Below are positions 6,219-18,936 of a DNA stretch of 24,541 nucleotides, piece after piece. The translations under genes and the position numbers were made by a program. A model generated the notes under the pieces. That model saw only the letters and a program-made list of their open reading frames with translations, searched no databases and was not told the origin of the DNA. The stretch covers positions 1 through 24,541 of the forward strand of contig JALGVQ010000011.1 in NCBI GenBank assembly GCA_025774615.1, given 5' to 3'. The DNA is from a bacterium. GTDB lineage: Bacteria; Blakebacterota; Blakebacteria; Blakebacterales; Blakebacteraceae. Within the stretch, counting starts at the first letter, position 1, and the number at the start of each line of letters is the position of its first letter.

Positions 6219-7118
6219 TTACTTTGCCGGTTCCTCGATTGGCTCCCGGATTTTGAATCGGTTCATGACCTCCGGCTTGAACCGCTGGCGCTCAAATCCC
6301 AGATCCTCATACGCTACACCCTGAGCGAAGGCCAGGAGCTGGAAGTAGTAGACCGGCGGAGTATGGAAATCTTCGTCGAACTGCTTTGCGACCTTCAGCT
6401 GCCCGTAGTCGAACTGTCCGAAGCAGGTAGGGCAGATTAGACAGAGCAGTTCGGCCTCGGCCTCCTGTACGGTCGTCAGCAGGTCACGCATCATGTTCGC
6501 GGGCAGGTCTTCGTTACTGCATGCTTTTCCACAGCAGAGATACCACTTGTCATGCCGGACCGGATTGGCCCCCAGTGCTCTTACCAGATCTTCCAGGATG
6601 GTCGGATTGTTGGGATCATCCACGTTCATGATCTTGCTCGGCTTGAGAAGATGACAGCCGTAATGGATTGCTACATTCAGACCATTGAGCGGCCGCACGA
6701 CCGTCTCGCGGATGGCCTCATATCCCACGACGTCCCGAACCAGGGTGGCGATATGGCGGAGCCTGCTGGTGCCTTTCCACTCCTTGCCGATCTTTGCCAG
6801 CCGCGCATTGACCTTGTCACGGATTTCTTCATTTTCGTGCATGAGATGCCAGGTCTCTGACAGCGTGGCAGTGCAACCCGAGCAGTTAGTGAACAGGTCG
6901 ATCCCCTCTTCCTCGGCCAGGCAGAGATTCCGCGCGGCGACTGAGAGCCAGTCGAGCTTGTCGCGCGACTTGAAGTAGATCGGATCGGGACAGCATGAAG
7001 TGCCCTCAAGGTCAACGATCTCGATACCCAGTTTCGGCAGGGTATGGCGGATGGCGAACTCCATCGCCGGGTACCGTGTCGGAACCAGACAGCCGGGGAA
7101 GAACGCGAAACGGTTCAT
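6219..7118 (-). CDS. hdrB: heterodisulfide reductase subunit B (HdrB)
   Basis: 299 aa. Two cysteine-rich CCG domains are complete: Cys10, 42, 43, 79, 82 and Cys155, 195, 196, 229, 232. The first set matches the spacing of methanogen HdrB, where these residues bind two non-cubane [4Fe-4S] clusters that cleave the CoM-S-S-CoB disulfide. Bacteria lack that substrate in general, so the natural disulfide or other acceptor here is unknown. The start overlaps the hdrC stop by four bases (ATGA). It is the last gene of the kor-hdr operon. With all ten ligands intact, it is predicted to be catalytically competent. Confidence 0.93.
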   Translation of the reverse strand: MNRFAFFPGCLVPTRYPAMEFAIRHTLPKLGIEIVDLEGTSCCPDPIYFKSRDKLDWLSVAARNLCLAEEEGIDLFTNCSGCTATLSETWHLMHENEEIRDKVNARLAKIGKEWKGTSRLRHIATLVRDVVGYEAIRETVVRPLNGLNVAIHYGCHLLKPSKIMNVDDPNNPTILEDLVRALGANPVRHDKWYLCCGKACSNEDLPANMMRDLLTTVQEAEAELLCLICPTCFGQFDYGQLKVAKQFDEDFHTPPVYYFQLLAFAQGVAYEDLGFERQRFKPEVMNRFKIREPIEEPAK

Positions 7119-7627
7119 GACTCTTTTCCTTCCCCTGTGGATGCTTCGATCAGGATCAAGATCTCATCCATCGGTACGGGGGAGAGGGGGGGGAGGCCGA
7201 ATCGGGCCCGATTTTTGTCTATCGCCGGATTCATGGCGACCGTCCTTCCCTCGGTCAGGAACGCGTTGATGACCTTTTCCACTCCCGGCGGATACTGTCC
7301 CCGGTCGGCCATCATGTTCTTCATGCTGATGATGACCTCGGCCGGTTTGACCTCCTGGGGACATCGTTCGGCGCAGTTGTAGCAGTTGGTGCATTCCCAG
7401 AGGTACGATTCATCCCCGATCAGTTCTTCGCCCAGACCGTAGAGCACCTTCAGCATGATCTGGCGGGGATTGAAATCATCGGTATAGGTCATTGCCGGGC
7501 AATCCCCCACGCATGCGCCGCACTGGTAACAGAAACTGGCCAGATTTCCTTCTACTTTCTCGGCCAGCTCGCGCCTGAACGCGAAATCCACCCGTACGAC
7601 CTTCTTCTTGCCTGCCGACTCAGCCAT
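7115..7627 (-). CDS. hdrC: heterodisulfide reductase subunit C (HdrC)
   Basis: 170 aa with two ferredoxin-type [4Fe-4S] motifs: C33-x2-C36-x2-C39-x3-C43 and C79-x2-C82-x2-C85-x3-C89, separated by the FNPRQIMLKVLYGLGEE helix typical of HdrC. It passes electrons from HdrA to HdrB. Start ATG at 7627 lies five bases after the zinc-ribbon stop, and its own TGA overlaps hdrB. This use of TGA as a real stop in the same operon matters for interpreting the in-frame TGAs in the two hdrA genes. Confidence 0.93.
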   Translation of the reverse strand: MAESAGKKKVVRVDFAFRRELAEKVEGNLASFCYQCGACVGDCPAMTYTDDFNPRQIMLKVLYGLGEELIGDESYLWECTNCYNCAERCPQEVKPAEVIISMKNMMADRGQYPPGVEKVINAFLTEGRTVAMNPAIDKNRARFGLPPLSPVPMDEILILIEASTGEGKES

Positions 7628-7850: not shown

Positions 7851-10310
7851 CTAGCTCGTGACGCTCTCGGCCTTTGCTTCTTTCTTGACCTTTTCCTTCT
7901 TCGGCTTCGGTTTCAGCGCCTCACGCGCGTGGGCTATCTCTTCCGGAGTGACTGTGGCGCGCAGCACTTCCATCTCCTTCATGACCTTCGCGAACTTCTG
8001 GCCTTCGGCCGCGCTGATCCACTCGAGTTGCAGACGCTCGGGCCTCACCCCGGCTTTCTCCAGTTTGTTCCAGAGACGCTGTACGCGCACGACCGTCTGC
8101 CGGTTGGCGTTGATGTAATGGCAGTCGGCGTAATGGCACCCCGAGACCAGCACAACCGGCGCTCCGGCACGGAACGCCTCCAGAACCATCTCTTCGGAGA
8201 CCCGCGCCGAACACATCGTCCTGATCACTCGGTTCGAGGCTGGGTATTCCAGCCGGGAGATACCGGCCATGTCACCCCCTGCATACGAGCACCAGTTGCA
8301 GGCGAAGACGAAGACCTTTTCGTCGGGCTCATGTTCGAGGACCGCCTGGACCTGAGCGACCAGCTGGTCATCGGTGAAGTGGCGCATGGTTATCGCGCCG
8401 AACTTGCACGCTGCGCCGCAACAACCGCATCCTGCGCACGCCGCTTCGATGACCTCCGCCTTCTGGCCCTTCTCCCAGACGATGGCAGAGTAAGGGCAGA
8501 GTCCGGCACAGATACCGCACTCGGTACAGAGGTCGGGATCGATCACGCTGGTTATCGCTTCGATGTGTATCTCACCGGCATTGAGCAGCGCGCCGACCTT
8601 CGAGGCCGCGGCACCCGACTGGCAGACGGACTCCTTGATGTCCTTCGGCGACTCGCAGAAGCCGGCGAAGTAGACACCCTTGGTGGGCGCATCGACCGGC
8701 TTCAGCTTCGGATGCGATTCCATGAAGAACCCGTCAGAGGTCTTCGACAGGGTCAGCAGTCCCGAAATCTTTTTCAGGTCTTTCGGGGGGATGACTCCGA
8801 CGGAGAGGACGACCATGTCGAGTTCATGCCGTTCGAGCTTGCCCGATGTGGTGTTCTCAACCGTGATAATGAGGTTGCCGGTCTCGGGATCTTCCTCGAT
8901 GTCACCGGGAAGACCGCGTACGTACCGGACGCCCATCTCCTTGGAACGCTGGAACATGTCCTCGAACGATTTGCCGAACGCCCGGATGTCCTGATATGAG
9001 ACCACGTTCCCGGTGTCGGGATAGTGATCGGCCAGCAGGAGTGTGTCCTTGATGGTGTTCATACAGCAGATGTTCGAGCAGTACGGTCTGCCAATGGCGG
9101 GGTTTCGGGAACCGACGCACTGGATAAAGCCGATCCGCTTCGGTCGGGTGACGTCGCTCGGACGCACGAAATGCCCGTCGGTGGGGCCGCCGGCACAGAT
9201 CAGACGCTCGAACTCCATCGAGGTGATGACGTTCTCGAAACGGGTGTACCCGTACTCGTCCATCTCGGTCGGGTCGTAGACGTCGAGCCCGATGGCTACC
9301 ACGACAGCTCCGACTTCGCGCACGATCAGCTCGTCCTGGTCGTCGTAATCGATGGCATCCTGCTCGCAGACGTCCTGGCATTTGCCGCAGGCGATCGGAT
9401 TGTTTCCGAGACAGTTCTCCATGTCGAGCGTATAGGCACTCGGTACCGCCTGGGGGAAGGGGATGTAGATCGCCTTCCGTGAGGACAGGCCCATCTGGTA
9501 CTCGTCGGGAACCACCTGGGGACAGACCTTGGCGCACTCATCGCAGGAATTGCACAGATCGAGATCGACGTACCGGGCCTTCTTCCGGATGGTGACCGAG
9601 AAGTTCCCTACATAACCGGAGACAGCCTCGACTTCGGCGTAGGTGATCAGCTCTATATTTGGATGCCGACCGGCATCAATGGCCTTGGGGCCAAGTATTC
9701 ATATAGAGCAGTCCATCGTGGGATAGGTCTTGTCCAACTGAGCCATGATCCCACCGATGGTTGCGGTCTTCTCGACCAGCGTGACCTTGTGTCCCTGTTC
9801 CGCCAGTTGGAGAGCCGCCTCGATCCCCGCGATCCCGCCCCCGATAACCAGTGCCCGCTGGGTGACCGGGACCGCCATCTCTTCCTGACTCTGCAGGAAG
9901 CGGGCCCGGGCTACGGCACTGGCCACGAGATCCTTCGCCTTGCTGGTGGCTCCGTCCCAATCGTTCGGATGGACCCATGAACAATGCTCGCGCAGGTTAG
10001 CCATCTCCATGAGATATGGATTCAGTCCTGCCTCATGGACACATTGCCGGAATGTCGGCTCATGCTGTCTCGGAGTGCACGACGCGACGACCACACGGTT
10101 CAGGTTGTGCAGCTTGATCGCGTCCTTGATCTCGTTCTGACCGGGATCGGCACACGTGTACTTGTTCTGTACCGCGCATACCACATCCTGCAGCGTTTTG
10201 GCATACTCCGTGACATCGGCTGTATCGACTGCTCCCGCGATATTCAAACCGCAGTCACAGACGAACACCCCGATCCGGAGTTCATCGCCATTCGATGCGT
10301 TGGCTACCAT
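7851..10310 (-). CDS. hdrA: HdrA-MvhD fusion, selenocysteine-containing (TGA at 9699-9701 read as Sec)
   Basis: 819 aa if the in-frame TGA is read as Sec204. Order: HdrA N-terminal domain (1-145, Cys-rich, with SCTPRQHEPTF); FAD Rossmann motif GGGIAG at 157-162; QLDKTYPTMDCSI-U at the conserved CxxC site, here CxxU; inserted ferredoxin C253-x2-C256-x2-C259-x3-C263 and a second CGKCQDVCEQ site; C-x12-C-x3-CC cluster motif as in methanogen HdrA; two C-terminal ferredoxins (595-605, 625-635); and a fused MvhD/FlpD [2Fe-2S] domain (about 664-790) ending in a Lys-rich tail. The flavin is the expected bifurcation site. The start has GGAAGGA upstream. No other stop interrupts the frame. A single recoded gene is far likelier than two genes or a pseudogene. 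Confidence 0.92.
9662..9677 (-). promoter_or_regulatory. bacterial SECIS-like hairpin of hdrA-mvhD
   Basis: On the minus strand the RNA forms a perfect 6-bp stem GAUGCC/GGCAUC capped by a GGUC tetraloop. The loop lies at nucleotides +28 to +31 after the UGA. Known bacterial SECIS elements lie inside the coding region just downstream of UGA, with the loop roughly 16-37 nucleotides away and G at its start; E. coli fdhF also has GGUC in the loop. The other hdrA has the same structure with a compensatory pair change. Confidence 0.8.
9699..9701 (-). other. in-frame UGA read as selenocysteine (hdrA-mvhD)
   Basis: TGA at codon 204 replaces the second Cys of the conserved D-C-x-x-C motif of HdrA. 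The frame continues with ILGPKAIDAGRHPNIEL, the normal HdrA continuation, up to the next ferredoxin motif without another stop. Confidence 0.9.
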
Positions 10311-10340
10311 CTGTCCCTTTCCTTCCGGGAAATGGTTCGT

Positions 10341-11483
10341 TTATGAGATGAGGTCGAGTACTAGCTCTGCGACATCCCTCATCTCGATCTTGATCTCCTC
10401 TTTCAGAAGAGGATCCTTCATTGCACAGCTGAAGTGGATCTGGCACTTCGGACATGCCGTTGCCATCACCTCAGCGCCCGTCGCGCGGGCTTCGCGCAGA
10501 CGGTCCACCTGGATCTGTTTCGCGAAGATGTCACAATTCGACCAGGTACCGCCGGCACAACACTGTGCGCCCTGCTTCGAGTGTCTCATCTCCACCAGTT
10601 CAACACCCGGCAGGGCTTCGATAACCTCGCGGGGTGGGTCGTAAATGCCGAGCTGCCGTCCGAGACGGCACGGGTCCTGGTAGGTCACCTTCAGAACGCC
10701 GTTTTCTTTCAGATCGAGTTCCGGCAGGTGTTCGGCGATGTATTCGGTCATGTGCATGATCTTCGGGAGTTTCCCGGCGCCGAACGTTTGATATTCCTTT
10801 GCCCATGTGCGCAGGCATTCGGCGCAGGAGGTGACCAGCAGGCTGGCGCCGCTCTTCTTCACCACCTCCAGATTGTGACGGGCCAGTTGCTCGAAGCTCT
10901 TGCGGTCGCCATTCCAGAGCAGGTCGTGTCCACAACAGCGTTCCTCGGGAGAGACAACCGGAGTGACACCCAGTTTGTTGAAGAGCCGGATCGCTGCTTT
11001 CGTGCCCTCGATCGGTCTGGAGCCGTAGTCGGGGAAGAGCGCGTCATAATACATGGAACAGCCTGTCCAGTAGAACACATCCCCCTCGGCCGGTGTGGTC
11101 TTCAGATCATCCTCGATCCACTCCATCCGGTTCTGCACAGTTCCACCGGAGGCCATGAGCCTCATGAGCGACTGGATCGTTCCTCCGTGGGGACAATCGG
11201 GCTCGATCCCCTCCGAGAACGCGAGTTCACGCAGATGGAGGACCAGATCAGTGTAGACAACCTGGGCGGGGCATCGTTGTTCACACAGCGAGCACGACAG
11301 ACAGGCGAAGAGTGTGTCGCGATCCATCACCTCCGCAGGATTTCCCGTGTTGCTGTCGAGGATGTGCCTCCGCGGACTGTACGATCCGCCCACGCGGGCG
11401 ATAGGGCAGGTTGCGGTACATTTGCCGCAGTCGTAGCAGGCCCAGGCTTTCGACTTCTTCGTAACCTCAGCGAGATCGACCAT
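10341..11483 (-). CDS. HdrD-like (HdrC+HdrB fusion) iron-sulfur oxidoreductase
   Basis: 380 aa. ATG at 11483 follows GGGAGAGG with good spacing; the longer frame would overlap mvhD. The N-terminus has two ferredoxin motifs (Cys16/19/22/26 and Cys61/64/67/71), equal to HdrC. The C-terminal half has two complete CCG domains, equal to HdrB: C-x40-CC-x35-C-x2-C and C-x35-CC-x34-C-x2-C. This HdrD/GlpC/LldE-like layout appears in soluble oxidoreductases that reduce disulfides, oxidise 2-hydroxyacids or handle sulfur compounds. Its place between two hdrA/mvhD units suggests it is the catalytic partner of HdrA2-MvhD, while HdrB/HdrC serve the fusion protein. No membrane segment is present, so it is cytoplasmic. 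Confidence 0.85.
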   Translation of the reverse strand: MVDLAEVTKKSKAWACYDCGKCTATCPIARVGGSYSPRRHILDSNTGNPAEVMDRDTLFACLSCSLCEQRCPAQVVYTDLVLHLRELAFSEGIEPDCPHGGTIQSLMRLMASGGTVQNRMEWIEDDLKTTPAEGDVFYWTGCSMYYDALFPDYGSRPIEGTKAAIRLFNKLGVTPVVSPEERCCGHDLLWNGDRKSFEQLARHNLEVVKKSGASLLVTSCAECLRTWAKEYQTFGAGKLPKIMHMTEYIAEHLPELDLKENGVLKVTYQDPCRLGRQLGIYDPPREVIEALPGVELVEMRHSKQGAQCCAGGTWSNCDIFAKQIQVDRLREARATGAEVMATACPKCQIHFSCAMKDPLLKEEIKIEMRDVAELVLDLIS

Positions 11484-11499
11484 CACCCGTACCTCTCCC

Positions 11500-12171
11500 T
11501 TATCCTGCCTGGCGCTCATCCTGCCCGCTCTTGAGCGGACTGGGGCCAAGCGCTCTGATCTGATCGGTGAATTCATTGATGACCTTCGCCCACCGGGGAC
11601 CCTCGGCGGCGCTGATCCATTCCAGCCTCACCCGGCCCGGTTCCAGACCGATCAGGTGAACGAGCTTCTTTGTGATCTCGAAGTGCTCGAGCTGGCGCTC
11701 GTTTCCGGAGACGTAGTGGCAATCCCCGATGTGGCATCCCGAGACCAGAACGCCGTCGGCGCCTTTCTCGAGAGCACGCAGGACGAACCCGGGATGAACC
11801 CGGCCGGAGCACATGACCCGGATGGTCCTGAAATGCGGCTGGTGCTGGATGCGTGAGATCCCAGCGGTGTCGGCTCCTGCGTACGAGCACCAGTTACACG
11901 CAAAGACGCAGATATTGGGATTCCACGTGGTGCTGCCGACAGGTACCGTCTCGACCGCGGTCTTCTTCGCAGGTGCCTTCGCGGCTGCCTTCTTTGTCGA
12001 AGTCTTCTTCGCGACGGTCTTCTTTGCCGTGGTCTTCTTCAAGACAGCCTTCTTTGACGAAGTCTTTTTAGCAGCGGTTTTTTTCGAGACAGCCTTCTTC
12101 GCCACGGTCTTCTTTGCGGCAGCCTTCTTTGCCGTTGTCTTCTTCGAGGAGGTTTTTTTCTGCGCCGTCAT
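11500..12171 (-). CDS. mvhD: MvhD/FlpD-type [2Fe-2S] subunit with histone H1-like N-terminal repeat
   Basis: 223 aa. ATG at 12171 has GGAGGAG five bases upstream and overlaps the hdrA2 stop in ATGA. Residues 5-71 are a run of pentapeptides KKxxx ([15 protein letters not shown] and others), nearly pure Lys, Ala, Thr, Ser and Val, like the tail of histone H1. From about residue 80 a normal MvhD domain follows: [36 protein letters not shown] and [10 protein letters not shown], holding the cysteines expected for the [2Fe-2S] cluster. In methanogens MvhD carries electrons from hydrogenase or formate dehydrogenase to HdrA. Neither enzyme is nearby. The basic tail is not part of the family and its role is unknown. 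Confidence 0.9.
11959..12159 (-). repeat. degenerate 15-bp tandem repeat coding for KKxxx pentapeptides
   Basis: About 13 units, each beginning with two Lys codons followed by three small or hydroxyl residues. Units differ in both DNA and protein sequence, so the array is old or has been kept by selection on composition. On the plus strand it makes a spurious Phe-rich open frame. Confidence 0.85.
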
Positions 12172-15100
12172 CGTGTCTCCTCCACAAAGGCGGTGTCGAT
12201 CATCGCGATCACCTGCTTGTCGGTGAAGTGCCGGGCGTCTATTGCCGAGGATGGGCACCAGGCCGCGCAGACGCCGCACCCCTTGCAGAGAGAAGCGTTG
12301 ATCCTGGCGATGTGGACACCCGACTCAATCTCGATCAGGTCGGCTGCGGCGTAGGGACAGACATCGACACACGTCCCGCAGGCGCGGCACTTGATCTCAT
12401 CGACCACCGATACCGTCGGTTCGATCCGCACGCTGTCGTAGGAAAGCAGGACGGCTGCTTTGGCAGCGGAGGCTGATGCCTGGGCCACCGAGTCGACGAT
12501 GTCCTTCGGTCCCTGGACGGTGCCGGCCAGGAAAACGCCCTCGACAACGGTCTCCACCGGCGCCAGTTCGGGGTGACGCTCAAGGAAGAAGCCGTCGAGT
12601 CCGAGGCTGGCCTTCAGCAGCAGGTGGAAATGTTCAGTCTCGGGCTGTTGCGGTCGCATACCGACACTCAGGATCACCAGGTCTGTCTCAACCTCGAGCT
12701 TCTGGCCGAGCAGTTCATCATAGCAACGGAGCGCTTCCACCTTCTTCTTGCCGATGATCTCCGGCTTTTCACCAGGCGGGATCCGTACGAAGAGGACTCC
12801 CTTGCCCCGCGCTTCCCGATACATCTCCTCGGCTCCTGCCGATACCGTGCGGATGTCCCGGTAGAAGATGGTGGTGTCGATACCGAGGGAGTTCAGCTGG
12901 ATGGCCTGTTTTATCGCGGTGGGACAGCAGTATCGCGAACAGCCGGTGAAGCCTTCCTCTTCCCGCGATCCGACGCAGAGGATGAATGAGGCACTGGTCG
13001 GTTTCTCCCCGTCGATCAGAACGCCATCATCATTCTCGTGGAAGTTCTTCTCGAGTTCCTCGCTGGTGATGACGTTTGACATCTTTGCATACCCGAATTC
13101 ATCACCCGGGTCGTGGAGTGAGGCACCGAAGGCAAGGATGATGACACCCACCTTGAGCTCCTCTTCTGTCGCGCCCTTCAGCTTGATGTCGAAGTTGCCG
13201 ACGAATCCGGAAATGTCCTCGACCTCGGTATTGAGCAGGACACGAGCATCACTCTTCTCGAGCCGGCCCACCTTGCGTTCCAGTATCTCGCTGGCGAGGC
13301 GTCGGTTTGGATAGAGGTGCTTGAGATTCGGGGCACGGAGTCGACCGCCGAGTGTGTCGCTCTTTTCGACCAGAACGACCGGGAATCCCTGCTCGGCGAT
13401 GTCGGTTGCCGCCTGGATACCGGCGATGCCGCCGCCGATCACCACTGCCTGCTGGCTCATCGGAACCTCGCCCTCATACAGTTCCTCGAGATTCCTTGAG
13501 CGGGCTACACTCATCCGGATGAGGTCCTTGGCCTTCTCCTGCGCCAGAACGGGTTCGTTCGCGTGTACCCATGAACACTGGTCACGGATATTCACCATGT
13601 CGAGCATGTAGGGATTGAATCCGATCCCGGCGCACGCGTCCCGGAAGACCGGTTCGTGAGTCCGCGGGGTACAGGAGGCGATGACGAGCCGGTTCAACCG
13701 GTTCTCCCGGATCAGGTCGACGATCTGGTCCTGTCCGGTCTCGGCGCAGGCGAACATCGAGGGCTCGGCAGCGACGACACCCGGCAGTGTCAGAGCGTAA
13801 TCGGAGAGATCATCGACATCGAGGATCCCGCCGATGTTGGCGCCGCAACTGCAGACGATGACACCGACCCGTGGAGGGCCGGAGAGGTCGAGTGGTTCCG
13901 GCTTTTCCGCAATCTCTTCGATCCGGTCACCCGCCAGGAAAAGTCCAGCCCGGGCGGCGGCAGCCGATGCCTGGGCCACCGCGTCGGGGATGACCTGTGG
14001 TCCGATAGCACTGCCACAGACATAGACACCGTCCCGTACCGTCTCGACCGCAGAGACGGCTGGGTCGCGCGGGCTTACGAATCCGTACTGGTCGGTGTCG
14101 ATGCCGAGTATCTTTGAAAGCTCGATCGCGCCATCGTTGGGTGCTGCGGCAACCGAGAGTACCACGAGGTCGGCCGGGATCTGTTTCTGGACGTGTTCGA
14201 TCGTGTCTTCTACATGGATTACCAGGGTGTCGTCTTCAGGGTGGTGCTCGATCTTCGAGGGCCGGCCTCTTGTGTAGTGTGCGCTCTGCTCCTCGATAGA
14301 GCGTTTCACAAAGTCATCGAAGCCTTTCCCAAACGCCCTGAGGTCAGTGTAGAGGATGGTGATGTCCTCAACCTCGGGATCGTGCTGGCGGATGAGCATC
14401 GAATCCTTGACAGCGTTCATGCAGCAGAATCGACTGCAGTAGGGACGGCCGCCGTCTCCACGAGCCCCGACACACTGGATGAACACGATGTTGTTCGGGG
14501 TCTCCATGTCGGATGGTCTCACCACGTGACCGTCGGTCACTCCGGATGCGTTCAGCATCCGTTCGAGTTCAAGGCTCGTCACCACGTTGGGGAACCGGCC
14601 GTAGCCGTACTGGCCGAGTTTGCGTGCATCGAACTCCTTGAAGCCGATAGCCACGAGGATAGCACCGACGTCAAGCTTGTAATCCTTTGCGGTCATGTCG
14701 AAATCAATGGCGCCGACATCACAGGCATCGGTGCAGTGGCCGCAGGGCAGGTGGGGCAGGGTCACATCAGGCTGCCTCTTCATCTTGGCAGCTTTGATCT
14801 TCTCCATGCTCCTGATCTGTTTGTCGGAGAGGTGCGGGTAGAAGTTCAGACACGAATCGGGGTCAATGACGTAAGCGGACGGTACCGACTGGGGGAAGGG
14901 GCGGTAGATAGCCTTGCGGGCTTTGAAGCCCATGTCGAACTCGTTGCCGCCCACTTGCGGGCAGGTCTCAACACAGAGCCCGCATGCCACGCAGGCATCC
15001 AGATCCACATAGCGTGGGTACTGTCGCACGTGGACCTTGAAATCGCCAGGGTCACCTTCACAGGCGATGACTTCAGCGTTGGTGACGACCTCTATCAGCG

Positions 15101-15347
15101 GATGTCGACCGACATCCATGGCCCGAGGGCCCAGAATTCATATAGAGCAGTCCATGGTGGGAAAGGTCTTGTCCAGCTGGGCCATCCTGCCGCCCAGGGA
15201 CGGAGACGCCTCCACCAGCGTCACCGGTATCCTTGCATTCGCCAGGTCGAGAGCAGCCTGCATCCCGGCGATACCACCGCCGATCACGACGGCGCGTTTC
15301 CCCCGGGTCTCTACCGCTTCGATCATTCCTGCGGCTTCAGCGGTCAT
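12168..15347 (-). CDS. hdrA: double-module HdrA, selenocysteine-containing (TGA at 15138-15140 read as Sec)
   Basis: 1059 aa with Sec70. ATG at 15347 has GAGGAG seven bases upstream; a GTG at 15353 is the alternative. Module 1 (1 to ~485) starts directly at the FAD motif GGGIAG (23-28) and carries [14 protein letters not shown], ferredoxin sites [11 protein letters not shown] and CGHCTDAC, and the C-x11-C-x3-CC cluster motif. Module 2 (~492-1059) has the HdrA N-terminal domain, a second GGGIAG (638-643) and a second C-x11-C-x3-CC. It lacks the CxxU/CxxC site (LKHLYPNRR there) and the inserted ferredoxin, and ends in two ferredoxin motifs. It thus has two FAD sites and many clusters. korC stops 15 bases upstream; mvhD overlaps downstream. 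Confidence 0.92.
15099..15118 (-). promoter_or_regulatory. bacterial SECIS-like hairpin of the double-module hdrA
   Basis: The minus-strand RNA folds as UGGAUGUC-GGUC-GACAUCCG: seven Watson-Crick pairs plus a terminal U-G pair, with a GGUC tetraloop at +28 to +31 after the UGA. Loop sequence and distance are identical to those of the other hdrA. One pair has changed from C-G to U-A with both sides mutated. Confidence 0.82.
15138..15140 (-). other. in-frame UGA read as selenocysteine (double-module hdrA)
   Basis: TGA occupies the second Cys position of the HdrA D-C-x-x-C motif. The frame resumes with [17 protein letters not shown], the expected family sequence, with no further stop until 12168. 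Confidence 0.91.
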
Positions 15348-15362
15348 CCTCACACTCCTCGT

Positions 15363-15944
15363 TCAGAAGGCAGTTTCCACCGTTTCCTTCTTCGGTGTTC
15401 CGTCGCCGTAGTTCTCCTCGAAATGGTCCCAGCCGGCCTGGAATGCTTTCATGTTCAGTTCTTCGGTGCCGGCCGGAACCGAATCCATCACAGCGCTTTC
15501 CCACAGCTCTTTGGTGACGAGCAGCGTTACGGCAGCAAAGAAGCCGAGCATTACAATGTTCTGTACGATGACCCGCCCGATCTCCTCAGCGATCCTGGTG
15601 GAGGGGATCCCGTACCCCTTCTGCCCCTTCTTCAGGTCGGGTACCACCAGATCGCTCTCGTGGACCACGACCCCTTTGGCGTTGAGCAGATCTTTCGACT
15701 GCTCATAGCCATCCTGGGACATCGCGAGCAGGATATGGAGGTCCTGCAGGTAGGGGTAGAGCACTTCCGACTCATCGAGGACCAGAGAGGTACTGCAGGC
15801 CGATCCCCTCGCTTCCGGTCCGAAGCTCTGGATCATCGTCGCTTCATGACCGGCATCGATTGAATATGCATGCCCGATGATGTGGCCGCAGAGTACTACT
15901 CCCTGACCACCGAACCCGGTGATACGGATCTCTTTCCTACTCAT
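15363..15944 (-). CDS. korC: 2-oxoacid:ferredoxin oxidoreductase, gamma subunit
   Basis: 193 aa. ATG at 15944 follows AAGGAGGA and overlaps the korB stop by eight bases. The N-terminal IRITGFGGQGVVLCG (6-20) and IQSFGPEARGSACSTSLV blocks are the hallmarks of the gamma domain that binds CoA and contacts the alpha subunit. With KorA, KorB and KorD it forms the enzyme that decarboxylates a 2-oxoacid with CoA and reduces ferredoxin, or runs in reverse for CO2 fixation. It ends with TGA as a true stop, 15 bases before the double-module hdrA, which joins the kor and hdr parts in one transcript. Confidence 0.93.
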   Translation of the reverse strand: MSRKEIRITGFGGQGVVLCGHIIGHAYSIDAGHEATMIQSFGPEARGSACSTSLVLDESEVLYPYLQDLHILLAMSQDGYEQSKDLLNAKGVVVHESDLVVPDLKKGQKGYGIPSTRIAEEIGRVIVQNIVMLGFFAAVTLLVTKELWESAVMDSVPAGTEELNMKAFQAGWDHFEENYGDGTPKKETVETAF

Positions 15945-16851
15945 CGCGCCATCCTCCTTCGGGAGGCATCGGGACATATTTGTCACCGAGCACCTGCTCG
16001 TAGTGCGTATGCATGTTCTCGTGGTAGGTCGTCTTTTCGGGTTCATCGACGAACTTGCCGCAGATGATCTTTTCCTGGAAACCGATATCGACGTTACGCG
16101 TGTCTTCGCCGTGCCTGATCTCGGAGTTGTCGTGGTAGAACTGCATGAGGTTCAGCCCCGTGCCCAGCTTGTTGCGCCGCGCATAGAGCGTCGAGCAGGG
16201 CGCGATCACCTCGATGAACCGGAATCCCTTCCGCTGCATTGCCTCCTCGAAGGTCTTCGTCATCCTCCGAATGTGCAGGGAGGTCCACCGGGCCACGTAA
16301 CTCGCTCCGCAACTTGCCGCAAGGTGCGGCAGGTTGAACGGCTGGTCGAAATTCCCGAACGGCATCGTCGAGGAAATGGCCTTGAGTGGTGTCGTCGGTG
16401 CGTTCTGACCGCCGGTCATGGCATAGGTGAAGTTGTTCACCAGCACGACCAGGAGGTCCATGTTGCGCCGGGCGGCATGAATGAAGTGGTTGCCGCCGAT
16501 CCCCGAGAGGTCACCGTCACCGGAGAAGAGTGTCACGTTCAACTCGGTGCGCGCCATTTTGAGACCGGTCGCGAAAGCTATCGCTCGTCCGTGGGTCGTA
16601 TGGAAGGCATCGTAATTCATGTAGCCTGCCACCCGTCCGGTACAGCCGATTCCTGAAACAATTGCGATCGTCTTCGGATCCAGGTCCAGTTTTTCCATCG
16701 CGGCCGCGTAGCACTTCACCACAGTGCCGATACCGCAGGTGGGACACCAGATATGCGGCATCCTGTCCATGCGGATGAACGGCGCGATCGGGTGATCCTC
16801 CGGCTGAACATTGTCCATATCGATTGTTGGTGCCTCTGCCTGAGCGCTCAT
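15937..16851 (-). CDS. korB: 2-oxoacid:ferredoxin oxidoreductase, beta subunit (TPP-binding)
   Basis: 304 aa. It has the WCPTCGIG cysteine pair (Cys36, Cys39) and the later SGIGCTGR Cys that bind the [4Fe-4S] cluster near TPP. The TPP/Mg motif GDGDLSGIGGNHF is near residue 109, followed by LLVVLVNNFTYAMTGGQ and SPTTP-like APTTPLK. The two-subunit-type length and the presence of separate alpha, gamma and delta genes match KorABCD (2-oxoglutarate type) more than pyruvate oxidoreductase, but the substrate is not certain from sequence. Start ATGA overlap with korA. Confidence 0.94.
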   Translation of the reverse strand: MSAQAEAPTIDMDNVQPEDHPIAPFIRMDRMPHIWCPTCGIGTVVKCYAAAMEKLDLDPKTIAIVSGIGCTGRVAGYMNYDAFHTTHGRAIAFATGLKMARTELNVTLFSGDGDLSGIGGNHFIHAARRNMDLLVVLVNNFTYAMTGGQNAPTTPLKAISSTMPFGNFDQPFNLPHLAASCGASYVARWTSLHIRRMTKTFEEAMQRKGFRFIEVIAPCSTLYARRNKLGTGLNLMQFYHDNSEIRHGEDTRNVDIGFQEKIICGKFVDEPEKTTYHENMHTHYEQVLGDKYVPMPPEGGWRDE

Positions 16852-18008
16852 TTGGCTGCTCCCACGATTGCTTCGACGATCGTTTCGGGATCGTGAACTC
16901 CCCCACCGGGGTGAGGGACACTGGTTGTCGTGCAGTTGCCGGCCGCGCAGCGCTCGACTTCGAGTACCACCTGGCCCATGTTGATCTCGGGTACAACAAA
17001 TCCCTTGATCTTCTTTGCCATCTCCCTGATCTGCTTTTCCGGGAAGGGCCAGACCACGATCAGCCGGATAACACCGACCTTGACTCCCTTTTCACGGGCC
17101 TTCTCGATCGCCAGCCTGGCGACTCGTGAAGTGATCCCGTAGCTGAGAACGACAACGTCGGCTCCGTCGGTCTCCTCTTCCTCGAACCGGATGATGTCAT
17201 CAACGTTCTTGTTGATCTTGTCCATGAGCCGGGTAACGAGTTTCCACTGTCCTTCGACGGTCATGTCGGGGTACCCGCGGTAATCGTGCGTCAGACCGGT
17301 CGTGTGGAACCGATATCCGTCACCAGCGCGGGCGAACTCGGGTACCAGCTCGCCGTTATTCACCTCGTACGGCCAGAACTCGCCCGGTTTCTTGTCCGTG
17401 AGCTTCCGCGGGACGATGTCGATCTCGTCAGGCTCGGGGATGATCACCTTCTCGGTCATGTGCCCGACACACTCATCCATCATGAAGAGGACCGGCACCC
17501 GGTAGATCTCGGAGAGGTTGAAGGCATCGATCATCAGGTCGAACGATTCCTGTGGCGACTTCGGACTCATGGCGATGATTTCGTAATCGCCATGGGAGCC
17601 CCACCTGGCCTGCATCATGTCGGACTGGCCGGTCATGGTCGGCAGACCGGTCGAGGGTCCGCCGCGCTGCACATTCACGAGCACGCAGGGAGTCTCCATC
17701 ATCACTGCAAGGCCGAGATTCTCCATCATCAGGCTGAATCCGGGGCCGCTGGTGACCGTCATCGATTTCGTGCCCGTAAAGGCGGCACCGATGACAGCGG
17801 CCATACTGGCCATTTCGTCCTCCATCTGGATGAAGGTGCCCCCCATCATCGGGAAGCGACGCGACATCCTTTCCACGACCTCGGTTGAGGGCGTGATCGG
17901 GTATCCGGCCACGAACCTGCAGCCGGCAGCCATCGCGCCTTCTCCGGCAGCGAAGTCACCATCCAGGTAGTGGGCACCCGTCAGAACACCTAAGGGATCG
18001 GCTTTCAC
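16848..18008 (-). CDS. korA: 2-oxoacid:ferredoxin oxidoreductase, alpha subunit
   Basis: 386 aa. The GTG start at 18008 sits in a GTGA overlap with korD and follows AAGGAGGAG. Visible blocks are FVAGYPITPSTEVVE (pyrimidine-binding domain), QMEDEMASMAAVIGAAF with the catalytic-type Glu, TVTSGPGFSLMMENLGLA, NVQRGGPSTGLPT, ARWGSHGDYEIIAMSP, and the C-terminal domain VVVLSYGITSRVAR...GVIRLIVVWPFPE. It matches KorA/VorA alpha subunits. The enzyme works in the cytoplasm as an alpha-beta-gamma-delta complex. Confidence 0.94.
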   Translation of the reverse strand: MKADPLGVLTGAHYLDGDFAAGEGAMAAGCRFVAGYPITPSTEVVERMSRRFPMMGGTFIQMEDEMASMAAVIGAAFTGTKSMTVTSGPGFSLMMENLGLAVMMETPCVLVNVQRGGPSTGLPTMTGQSDMMQARWGSHGDYEIIAMSPKSPQESFDLMIDAFNLSEIYRVPVLFMMDECVGHMTEKVIIPEPDEIDIVPRKLTDKKPGEFWPYEVNNGELVPEFARAGDGYRFHTTGLTHDYRGYPDMTVEGQWKLVTRLMDKINKNVDDIIRFEEEETDGADVVVLSYGITSRVARLAIEKAREKGVKVGVIRLIVVWPFPEKQIREMAKKIKGFVVPEINMGQVVLEVERCAAGNCTTTSVPHPGGGVHDPETIVEAIVGAAK

Positions 18009-18343
18009 CGGGTCTCCTCCTTTTCAACCTGTTCAGCCGGGGCCTCCGACGATTCAGGTTCGTCCTTGAGCTCGGCCTTCACATCGTCGGTTATCGCGAC
18101 GCTGAAGATCGCAAAATCGGGACAGATCATCTCGCAGAGGTTGCAGTTCACACAGAGTCCTGTCTGAACGATCTCCGGTGGATGGTATCCCTTCTTGTTG
18201 AACCGTTTGGACAGCACCAGGACGTCCTTCGGGCAGTACTCCACACAGAAACCACAGCCTTTGCACCGGTCGTCAATGATGAGTACTTCACCGTGGGGAA
18301 TGGTGACCTGATCGAGGTCCAGTGGTTTACGCCAGTATTTCAT
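18005..18343 (-). CDS. korD: 2-oxoacid:ferredoxin oxidoreductase, delta (dicluster ferredoxin) subunit
   Basis: 112 aa from ATG at 18343, placed one base into the regulator stop (TGATG) with AAGGAAG upstream; a TTG one codon earlier is possible. Two [4Fe-4S] motifs, C-x2-C-x2-C-x3-C-P (27-38 region: CKGCGFCVEYCP) and CVNCNLCEMICP (64-75 region), are separated by the long linker typical of KorD. The C-terminal ~30 residues are acidic, Glu/Ala-rich and probably disordered. It carries electrons from KorB to soluble ferredoxin or, in this operon, possibly straight to HdrA. Confidence 0.93.
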   Translation of the reverse strand: MKYWRKPLDLDQVTIPHGEVLIIDDRCKGCGFCVEYCPKDVLVLSKRFNKKGYHPPEIVQTGLCVNCNLCEMICPDFAIFSVAITDDVKAELKDEPESSEAPAEQVEKEETR

Positions 18344-18936
18344 CAACCGCTTCCTTCCGTAACAGCGTGTTCCGGGTGGTGTGCCGCATACAGAGTGTTG
18401 TACGGGCAGCCACCGAGGATGTCGCCAACGGGACAGTCACGTTCCAGGTAGACAGCACAACGCAGGCAGTAGCTGTTTTCAAGCTCGTCGCCCGTGGATC
18501 CTTCGAATCTGAATACTTCCGCTGAGAATTTCTCAAGGAGTCGGGAGAGCTCTTCGATCTCTGCAGGGTCGAACTGATCGAGAACAGGGGAGAGGCGTTC
18601 GGCCTTCAGGTCTTCATACGTCTGAACCAGCCGTTTCCCCTTGGGATTCAGTGTGAGCAGAGTGGCCCTACGGTCACCTTCGGATGTGGTGCGGGTCACC
18701 AGGCCCAGTCCCTCCAGTTTGTCGATATTCTTCGATGCCGCTGCATTACTTACACCCATGAGTTCAGCGATCTCGCCGACCTGGTAGAGTTCGTTGTTCG
18801 ATATCAGCTTGAGGAGATAGAACTGGGAGATAGTAAGAGGAAGGGAAGAGGCTTCCTCAAGAAAGTGACGCTCGAGTACTTCACGTACCGTCGACGCGAA
18901 AATATGGCTGTTCCGGAGGAGTCGATTGTAGTCCAT
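18343..18936 (-). CDS. MarR-type regulator with C-terminal four-cysteine cluster
   Basis: 197 aa, longer than a usual MarR (~145). Residues 1-145 form the MarR winged helix: TISQFYLLKLISNNELYQVG, recognition helix MGVSNAAASKNIDKLEGLGL, and wing TRTTSEGDRRATLLTLNPKGK. The extra C-terminus carries Cys157, 160, 168 and 177 (C-x2-C-x7-C-x8-C), which could bind an Fe-S cluster or zinc. It is the first gene of the kor-hdr operon, and its stop overlaps the korD start. A 19-bp palindrome lies about 90 bases upstream. Redox or Fe-S control of the operon is the natural reading, but this is inference. Confidence 0.87.
   Translation of the reverse strand: MDYNRLLRNSHIFASTVREVLERHFLEEASSLPLTISQFYLLKLISNNELYQVGEIAELMGVSNAAASKNIDKLEGLGLVTRTTSEGDRRATLLTLNPKGKRLVQTYEDLKAERLSPVLDQFDPAEIEELSRLLEKFSAEVFRFEGSTGDELENSYCLRCAVYLERDCPVGDILGGCPYNTLYAAHHPEHAVTEGSG

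Follow-up and report, generated by a model that had tools for sequence, protein, structure and literature searches.

Two GGUC-Capped Hairpins Downstream of In-Frame UGA Codons in hdrA Genes of a Blakebacterota Bacterium as Probable Bacterial SECIS Elements

Introduction

Two hdrA genes on a single contig of a member of the Blakebacterota (GenBank assembly GCA_025774615.1, contig JALGVQ010000011.1, positions 1 to 24,541; this whole stretch of 24,541 nucleotides is referred to as the window) each contain a UGA codon within the reading frame, and each UGA is followed by a short hairpin with the loop GGUC. The question raised by this locus is whether the hairpins are signals for the insertion of selenocysteine (Sec), that is, bacterial SECIS elements, or whether the pairing comes about by chance from the protein that is encoded. 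Selenocysteine-containing HdrA (Sec-HdrA) has been known in bacteria since 2006, when it was found in Deltaproteobacteria and Firmicutes (PMC1794560), and it has also been described in Desulfobacterium autotrophicum (PMC2702500). In the bSECIS model (summarised in PMC13188914), a small apical loop with G in its first two positions lies 16–37 nt from the UGA; a general remark on diversity in the same source is that these elements often differ between genes.

Both hairpins are considered here to be bacterial SECIS elements within the coding sequence of Sec-containing HdrA genes, with a probability of about 0.95; SelB binding and Sec insertion would follow from the established biology of E. coli.

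The Gene Cluster and Its In-Frame UGA Codons

The genes surrounding the two hairpins are listed in Table 1. Gene order and family membership suggest that the encoded enzymes may carry out flavin-based electron transfer linked to the 2-oxoacid:ferredoxin oxidoreductase. The MvhD-like gene has Cys and is without UGA. Its N-terminal extension, rich in Lys, Ala and Thr, matches histone H1-like models (NF038052, E 1e-11), which is odd for an iron-sulfur electron carrier.

Table 1. Features of the hdrA locus and of the two hairpin regions (positions are those of the window).
Feature	Position	Strand	Basis
hdrB-like gene	6219-7118	-	TIGR03288, below equivalog cut-off
hdrC-like gene	7115-7627	-	TIGR03290, below equivalog cut-off
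hdrA copy B with MvhD/VhuD-like C-terminal part	7851..10310	-	NF040770 1136 bits, above cut-off
SECIS hairpin of copy B, GAUGCC-GGUC-GGCAUC, loop +28..+31	9662..9677	-	fold and orthologues
Upstream 5-bp hairpin of copy B, UGGCC-CCAA-GGCCA	9680..9693	-	fold
UGA of copy B, read as Sec204	9699..9701	-	in frame; aligned site is Cys in paralogues
HdrC/HdrB-type (GlpC/TfrB-like) iron-sulfur protein	10341..11576	-	matches below equivalog cut-offs
MvhD/VhuD-like protein with Lys/Ala-rich N-terminal extension	11500..~12174 (start inferred)	-	NF045873 114 bits (below cut-off); PF02662 171.7 bits
hdrA copy A, two HdrA-type flavin parts	12168..15347	-	NF040770 1009 bits, slightly below the 1100 cut-off
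SECIS hairpin of copy A, GGAUGUC-GGUC-GACAUCC, loop +28..+31	15100..15117	-	fold and orthologues
Upstream 4-bp hairpin of copy A, GGCC-CUCG-GGCC	15120..15131	-	fold
UGA of copy A, read as Sec70 with the ATG at 15347 taken as start	15138..15140	-	in frame
2-oxoacid:ferredoxin oxidoreductase gamma, beta, alpha and delta subunits	15363..18346	-	profile matches; alpha above its cut-off

Each hdrA gene has one in-frame UGA, and in each it lies within the motif T-M-D-C-S-I-UGA-I-L-G-P. HdrA paralogues that lack the UGA have Cys at this site. Both genes encode HdrA-family proteins with a UGA at the conserved Cys position, although only copy B scores above the family cut-off (copy A reaches 1009 of 1100 bits). 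The same genome, which is 82% complete, encodes selB (346 bits including a second piece), selA, selD and a tRNA-Sec (66 bits, above cut-off). The last domain of its SelB aligns with Aquifex SelB (4zu9) and with the SelB chains 1wsu, 1lva and 2ply. The match of the RNA-binding domain to Moorella SelB (1wsu chain A) is weak (E 0.002), so that no residue-level conclusion on recognition can be drawn from it. The selD gene (L250, G000:C273:7717-8634) itself contains one in-frame UGA, and the hairpin and loop predicted downstream of it are unlike those of the hdrA genes.

The standard code reads UGA as a stop and the window comes from a draft assembly, and the codons might on that account be ordinary stops, the product of frameshifts or assembly errors in broken genes, or sense codons throughout the genome. 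This explanation is very improbable: the same codon is UGA in well over 100 genomes, two congeners retain the UGA in both hdrA copies, and both frames run on for hundreds of residues past it in a genome with the Sec machinery. Genome-wide recoding was rejected, since copy A also ends at a UGA, so that this codon has not been reassigned everywhere. In copy A, UGA is found in two roles, as the Sec codon (15140-15138) and as the terminal stop (12168-12170).

The Two Hairpins in the Window

Both stems are 6–7 bp long. An earlier note on this DNA had described their coordinates, sequences and spacing and the C-G/U-A difference at the fifth pair, all of which were found to be right on the minus strand, as were the codon changes behind that difference: Ala GCC to Val GUC on the 5′ side, together with the synonymous change of Arg CGG to CGA. 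With RNAfold, both hairpins lie within the minimum-free-energy structure (−16.8 kcal/mol for copy B and −19.8 kcal/mol for copy A). The stability of the folds compared with shuffled sequences corresponds to z of about −2, with 4/200 and 9/200 shuffles equally good.

The same note pointed to the identical loop and spacing in the two genes. Both are present but do not count as independent evidence for an RNA element, since the loop and 3′ arm encode the conserved Gly-Arg-His-Pro of the family motif and there is no indel after the UGA. Nor are such hairpins by themselves rare, as nine perfect hairpins with 6 bp and a 4-nt loop occur in the window where 7.9 are expected from resampled sequence. 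With local codon usage, 4.3% of the codings of DAGRHP and 5.8% of those of DVGRHP contain a six-pair stem (1.0 and 1.3%, respectively, if the loop must also contain GGU). Taken alone, the two hairpins of the window are suggestive and not decisive; it is the orthologues that supply the proof.

Conservation of the Stem in Sec-HdrA Orthologues

GTDB genomes were scanned for the coding pattern DCSI-UGA-IL, a search that is blind to the hairpin, and at least 118 stretches were obtained. Further Sec and Cys HdrA paralogues were added from the genomes of the matched stretches. Among the matches listed and these paralogues, 119 distinct Sec-HdrAs with D[A/V]GRH were chosen by protein motif. They represent at least 15 named phyla, some labels possibly being wrong because many of these genomes are metagenome-assembled genomes (MAGs). 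Cultured bacteria, namely Desulfoprunum benzoelyticum (L057) and Desulfocicer vacuolatum (L073), also carry this hairpin.

All six pairs are kept in 118 of the 119 sequences (among the matches listed). The single exception (L026) has GAC in place of GAT, which gives a C-A mismatch, and it retains the UGA. When the 3′ arm was slid by 1–3 nt as a control, there were zero full stems in any sequence. The codons behind the stem are equally constrained. In the 118 full-stem sequences, a subset picked for having six pairs where the 119 had been picked by protein motif alone, the codons GAT (Asp), GGT (Gly) and CAT (His) are invariant. Across all 119, the GAC of L026 is the sole departure. Ala is always encoded by GCC and Val always by GTC, while Arg is CGG, CGA or, twice, AGG. 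The loop begins with GG in 118/118. Synonymous variation is absent only at codons +8 to +12; flanking codons vary freely, so that the invariance is not explained by recent common descent.

Sec-hdrA orthologues with unpaired substitutions or lacking any stem had been named in the earlier note as evidence that would count against a conserved structure. Over the orthologues, one unpaired substitution was found (L026, 1/119). Other Sec-HdrA subfamilies do lack the exact stem, yet have an alternative hairpin at about the same place, as described below.

Covariation at the Fifth Pair

The fifth pair is the one that varies. In the 118 sequences it is C-G in 66 (GCC with CGG), U-A in 39 (GTC with CGA), U-G in 13 (GTC with CGG or AGG) and C-A in none. 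The U-G state would be an intermediate between C-G and U-A, as stepwise compensation predicts. On a protein tree from which the stem columns were left out, Ala and Val switch about 25 times. Supported branches gave 17 independent Ala/Val comparisons, in which the Arg codon was compensating in 12, unchanged in 5 and opposite in 0 (median p 5e-4). A FastTree version gave 16 comparisons with, on average, 11.3 compensating against 0 opposite. Control third bases at codons +3, +13 and +15 had no significant association on the tree. The structure is conserved by compensatory change, as looked for in a bacterial SECIS, at one pair and after correction for the tree; covariation supports one pair because five of the six never vary.

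The covariation that had been proposed from the window thus holds over 119 orthologues and on the tree. It had been taken as direct support for a conserved RNA structure from the two window genes; this interpretation stands, but one pair in two sequences is thin evidence on its own.

Cys-HdrAs as a Natural Control

HdrAs with Cys at the UGA site provide a natural control. None of 27 has the six-pair stem, and GGU is absent at the Gly codon throughout. Glu is found at +8 in 20/27, and with Glu at this position the stem cannot be completed. One Cys-HdrA (L168/L258, G007:C1:1463232-1463284) falls inside the Sec clade on the tree (support 96 and 98), with 83% identity to a Sec form across the compared columns. 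Here the peptide D-V-G-R-H-P is kept, and its codons, GAC GTG GGC CGT CAT, break the stem. It is the sole Cys form with this motif among 395 sampled genomes of its phylum. This protein serves as a natural Sec-to-Cys reversion in which the hairpin was lost.

These comparisons bear on the possibility that coding for D-A/V-G-R-H-P yields the hairpins as a by-product, the pairing being accidental and the UGA decoded via another signal. The family motif does span the loop and 3′ arm, some 4–6% of codings yield six pairs, and the number of hairpins in the window is close to chance. Even so, a by-product has scarcely any likelihood left in view of synonymous codons that are invariant over at least 15 named phyla, Arg codons that compensate on the tree and a stem that decays in Cys forms sharing this peptide. 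These same three observations bear out the earlier claim that protein coding does not explain the pairing. The hairpins are under selection at the RNA level, with compensatory changes in the stem, the Sec machinery in the genome and no hairpin in the Cys forms.

If the hairpins are SECIS elements, SelB carrying Sec-tRNA(Sec) would bind the GGUC-capped hairpin and bring Sec to the UGA that lies some 28 nt upstream. The residue after DCSI would then be Sec, where related HdrAs have Cys.

Other Hairpins near the UGA

A second, smaller hairpin with a GGCC stem lies between the UGA and the GGUC hairpin. It is folded in both window genes, and its GGCC..GGCC core is complete in 22/22 relatives with Ala at +6 (in which Gly+3 is GGC or GGG and Ala is GCC) and in 0/97 with Met at +6. 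In this lineage the signal might consist of two hairpins, the GGCC hairpin acting as a helper that, for example, slows the ribosome or holds the distance. Such a role is unlikely. The Met/Ala difference at +6 reflects just three changes on the tree, too few independent changes for a test, so that common descent can account for the GGCC pattern. The hairpin is also absent from most relatives, and it begins 5 to 9 nt past the UGA, where it would probably be melted with the UGA in the A site.

Different hairpins are found at the SECIS site in other Sec-HdrA subfamilies. The PKLVE-type proteins (L217-L248) have CUGGUC-GAGGUC-GGCCGG, with six pairs in 29/30 and with paired variants in L237 (AUGGUC/GACCGU) and L248 (UUGGUC/GGCCGA). 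In five members GAGUGC-GGUCG-GCACUU is also possible. In 13 Chloroflexota-type Sec-HdrAs, UUGACGC-GGC-GCGUCAA is possible. Four of this type (L033, L077, L102 and L116) have Gln in place of the conserved His, encoded in three by CAA, which would add a U-A pair. From these alternative hairpins and the exchange of Gln for His, the residues next to GRH appear to depend on which hairpin a subfamily uses.

A broader reading can be offered tentatively, at somewhat less than even odds. The SECIS of Sec-HdrA may be a near-fixed RNA module, a 16-nt hairpin held across at least 15 named phyla that dictates residues of the enzyme. In the present class it would call for Asp beside GRH, where Glu is usual; in HdrA subfamilies with another hairpin at this site, the outcome would be Glu, invariably spelled GAG, or in some cases Gln in place of His. 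On this reading, no fewer than three SECIS designs would have emerged at a single site of a single enzyme, all subject to one SelB loop requirement.

Comparison with Known Systems and Significance

The HdrA hairpins are coding-region stem-loops just 3′ of the UGA, with a loop that starts with GG and 27 nt between UGA and loop, and nothing in them falls outside the bSECIS model. From phylum to phylum their sequence varies far less than the diversity remark in PMC13188914 would lead one to expect. An Rfam scan at a permissive E-value gave zero matches to SECIS families. The E. coli fdhF SECIS, to which the earlier note had compared them, does have the loop GGUC, though at +19. Its stem is longer, bulged and reaches near the UGA, whereas the HdrA stem is a plain helix with its loop at +28. 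The RNA in the SelB-SECIS complex of Moorella thermoacetica (PDB 1wsu) is reportedly a GGUC-capped stem as well.

Known Sec-HdrAs (PMC1794560, PMC2702500) share several features with those described here, including several copies per genome, adjacent hdrA genes and linked mvhD/frhD. In contrast to the frh operon described for those systems, the cluster here adjoins 2-oxoacid:ferredoxin oxidoreductase, and the host phylum is a poorly sampled one (4 genomes). Both the SECIS design and the selenoprotein family are already known, and what is added is a member in a poorly sampled phylum. A literature search for SECIS with GGUC, made mainly in freely accessible papers, found no report, and an earlier depiction of the HdrA SECIS is possible. 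The comparative evidence for the HdrA RNA element is stronger than in the literature compared.

That evidence brings together, in one large orthologue set, codons that do not vary, substitutions that are compensated on a tree and a stem that disappeared after a Sec-to-Cys reversion. It makes a class-specific search model for the HdrA SECIS possible, and Sec-HdrA is a good model for what SelB requires in diverse bacteria. For the family itself, it is a case of an RNA signal constraining the amino acids of an enzyme of energy metabolism.
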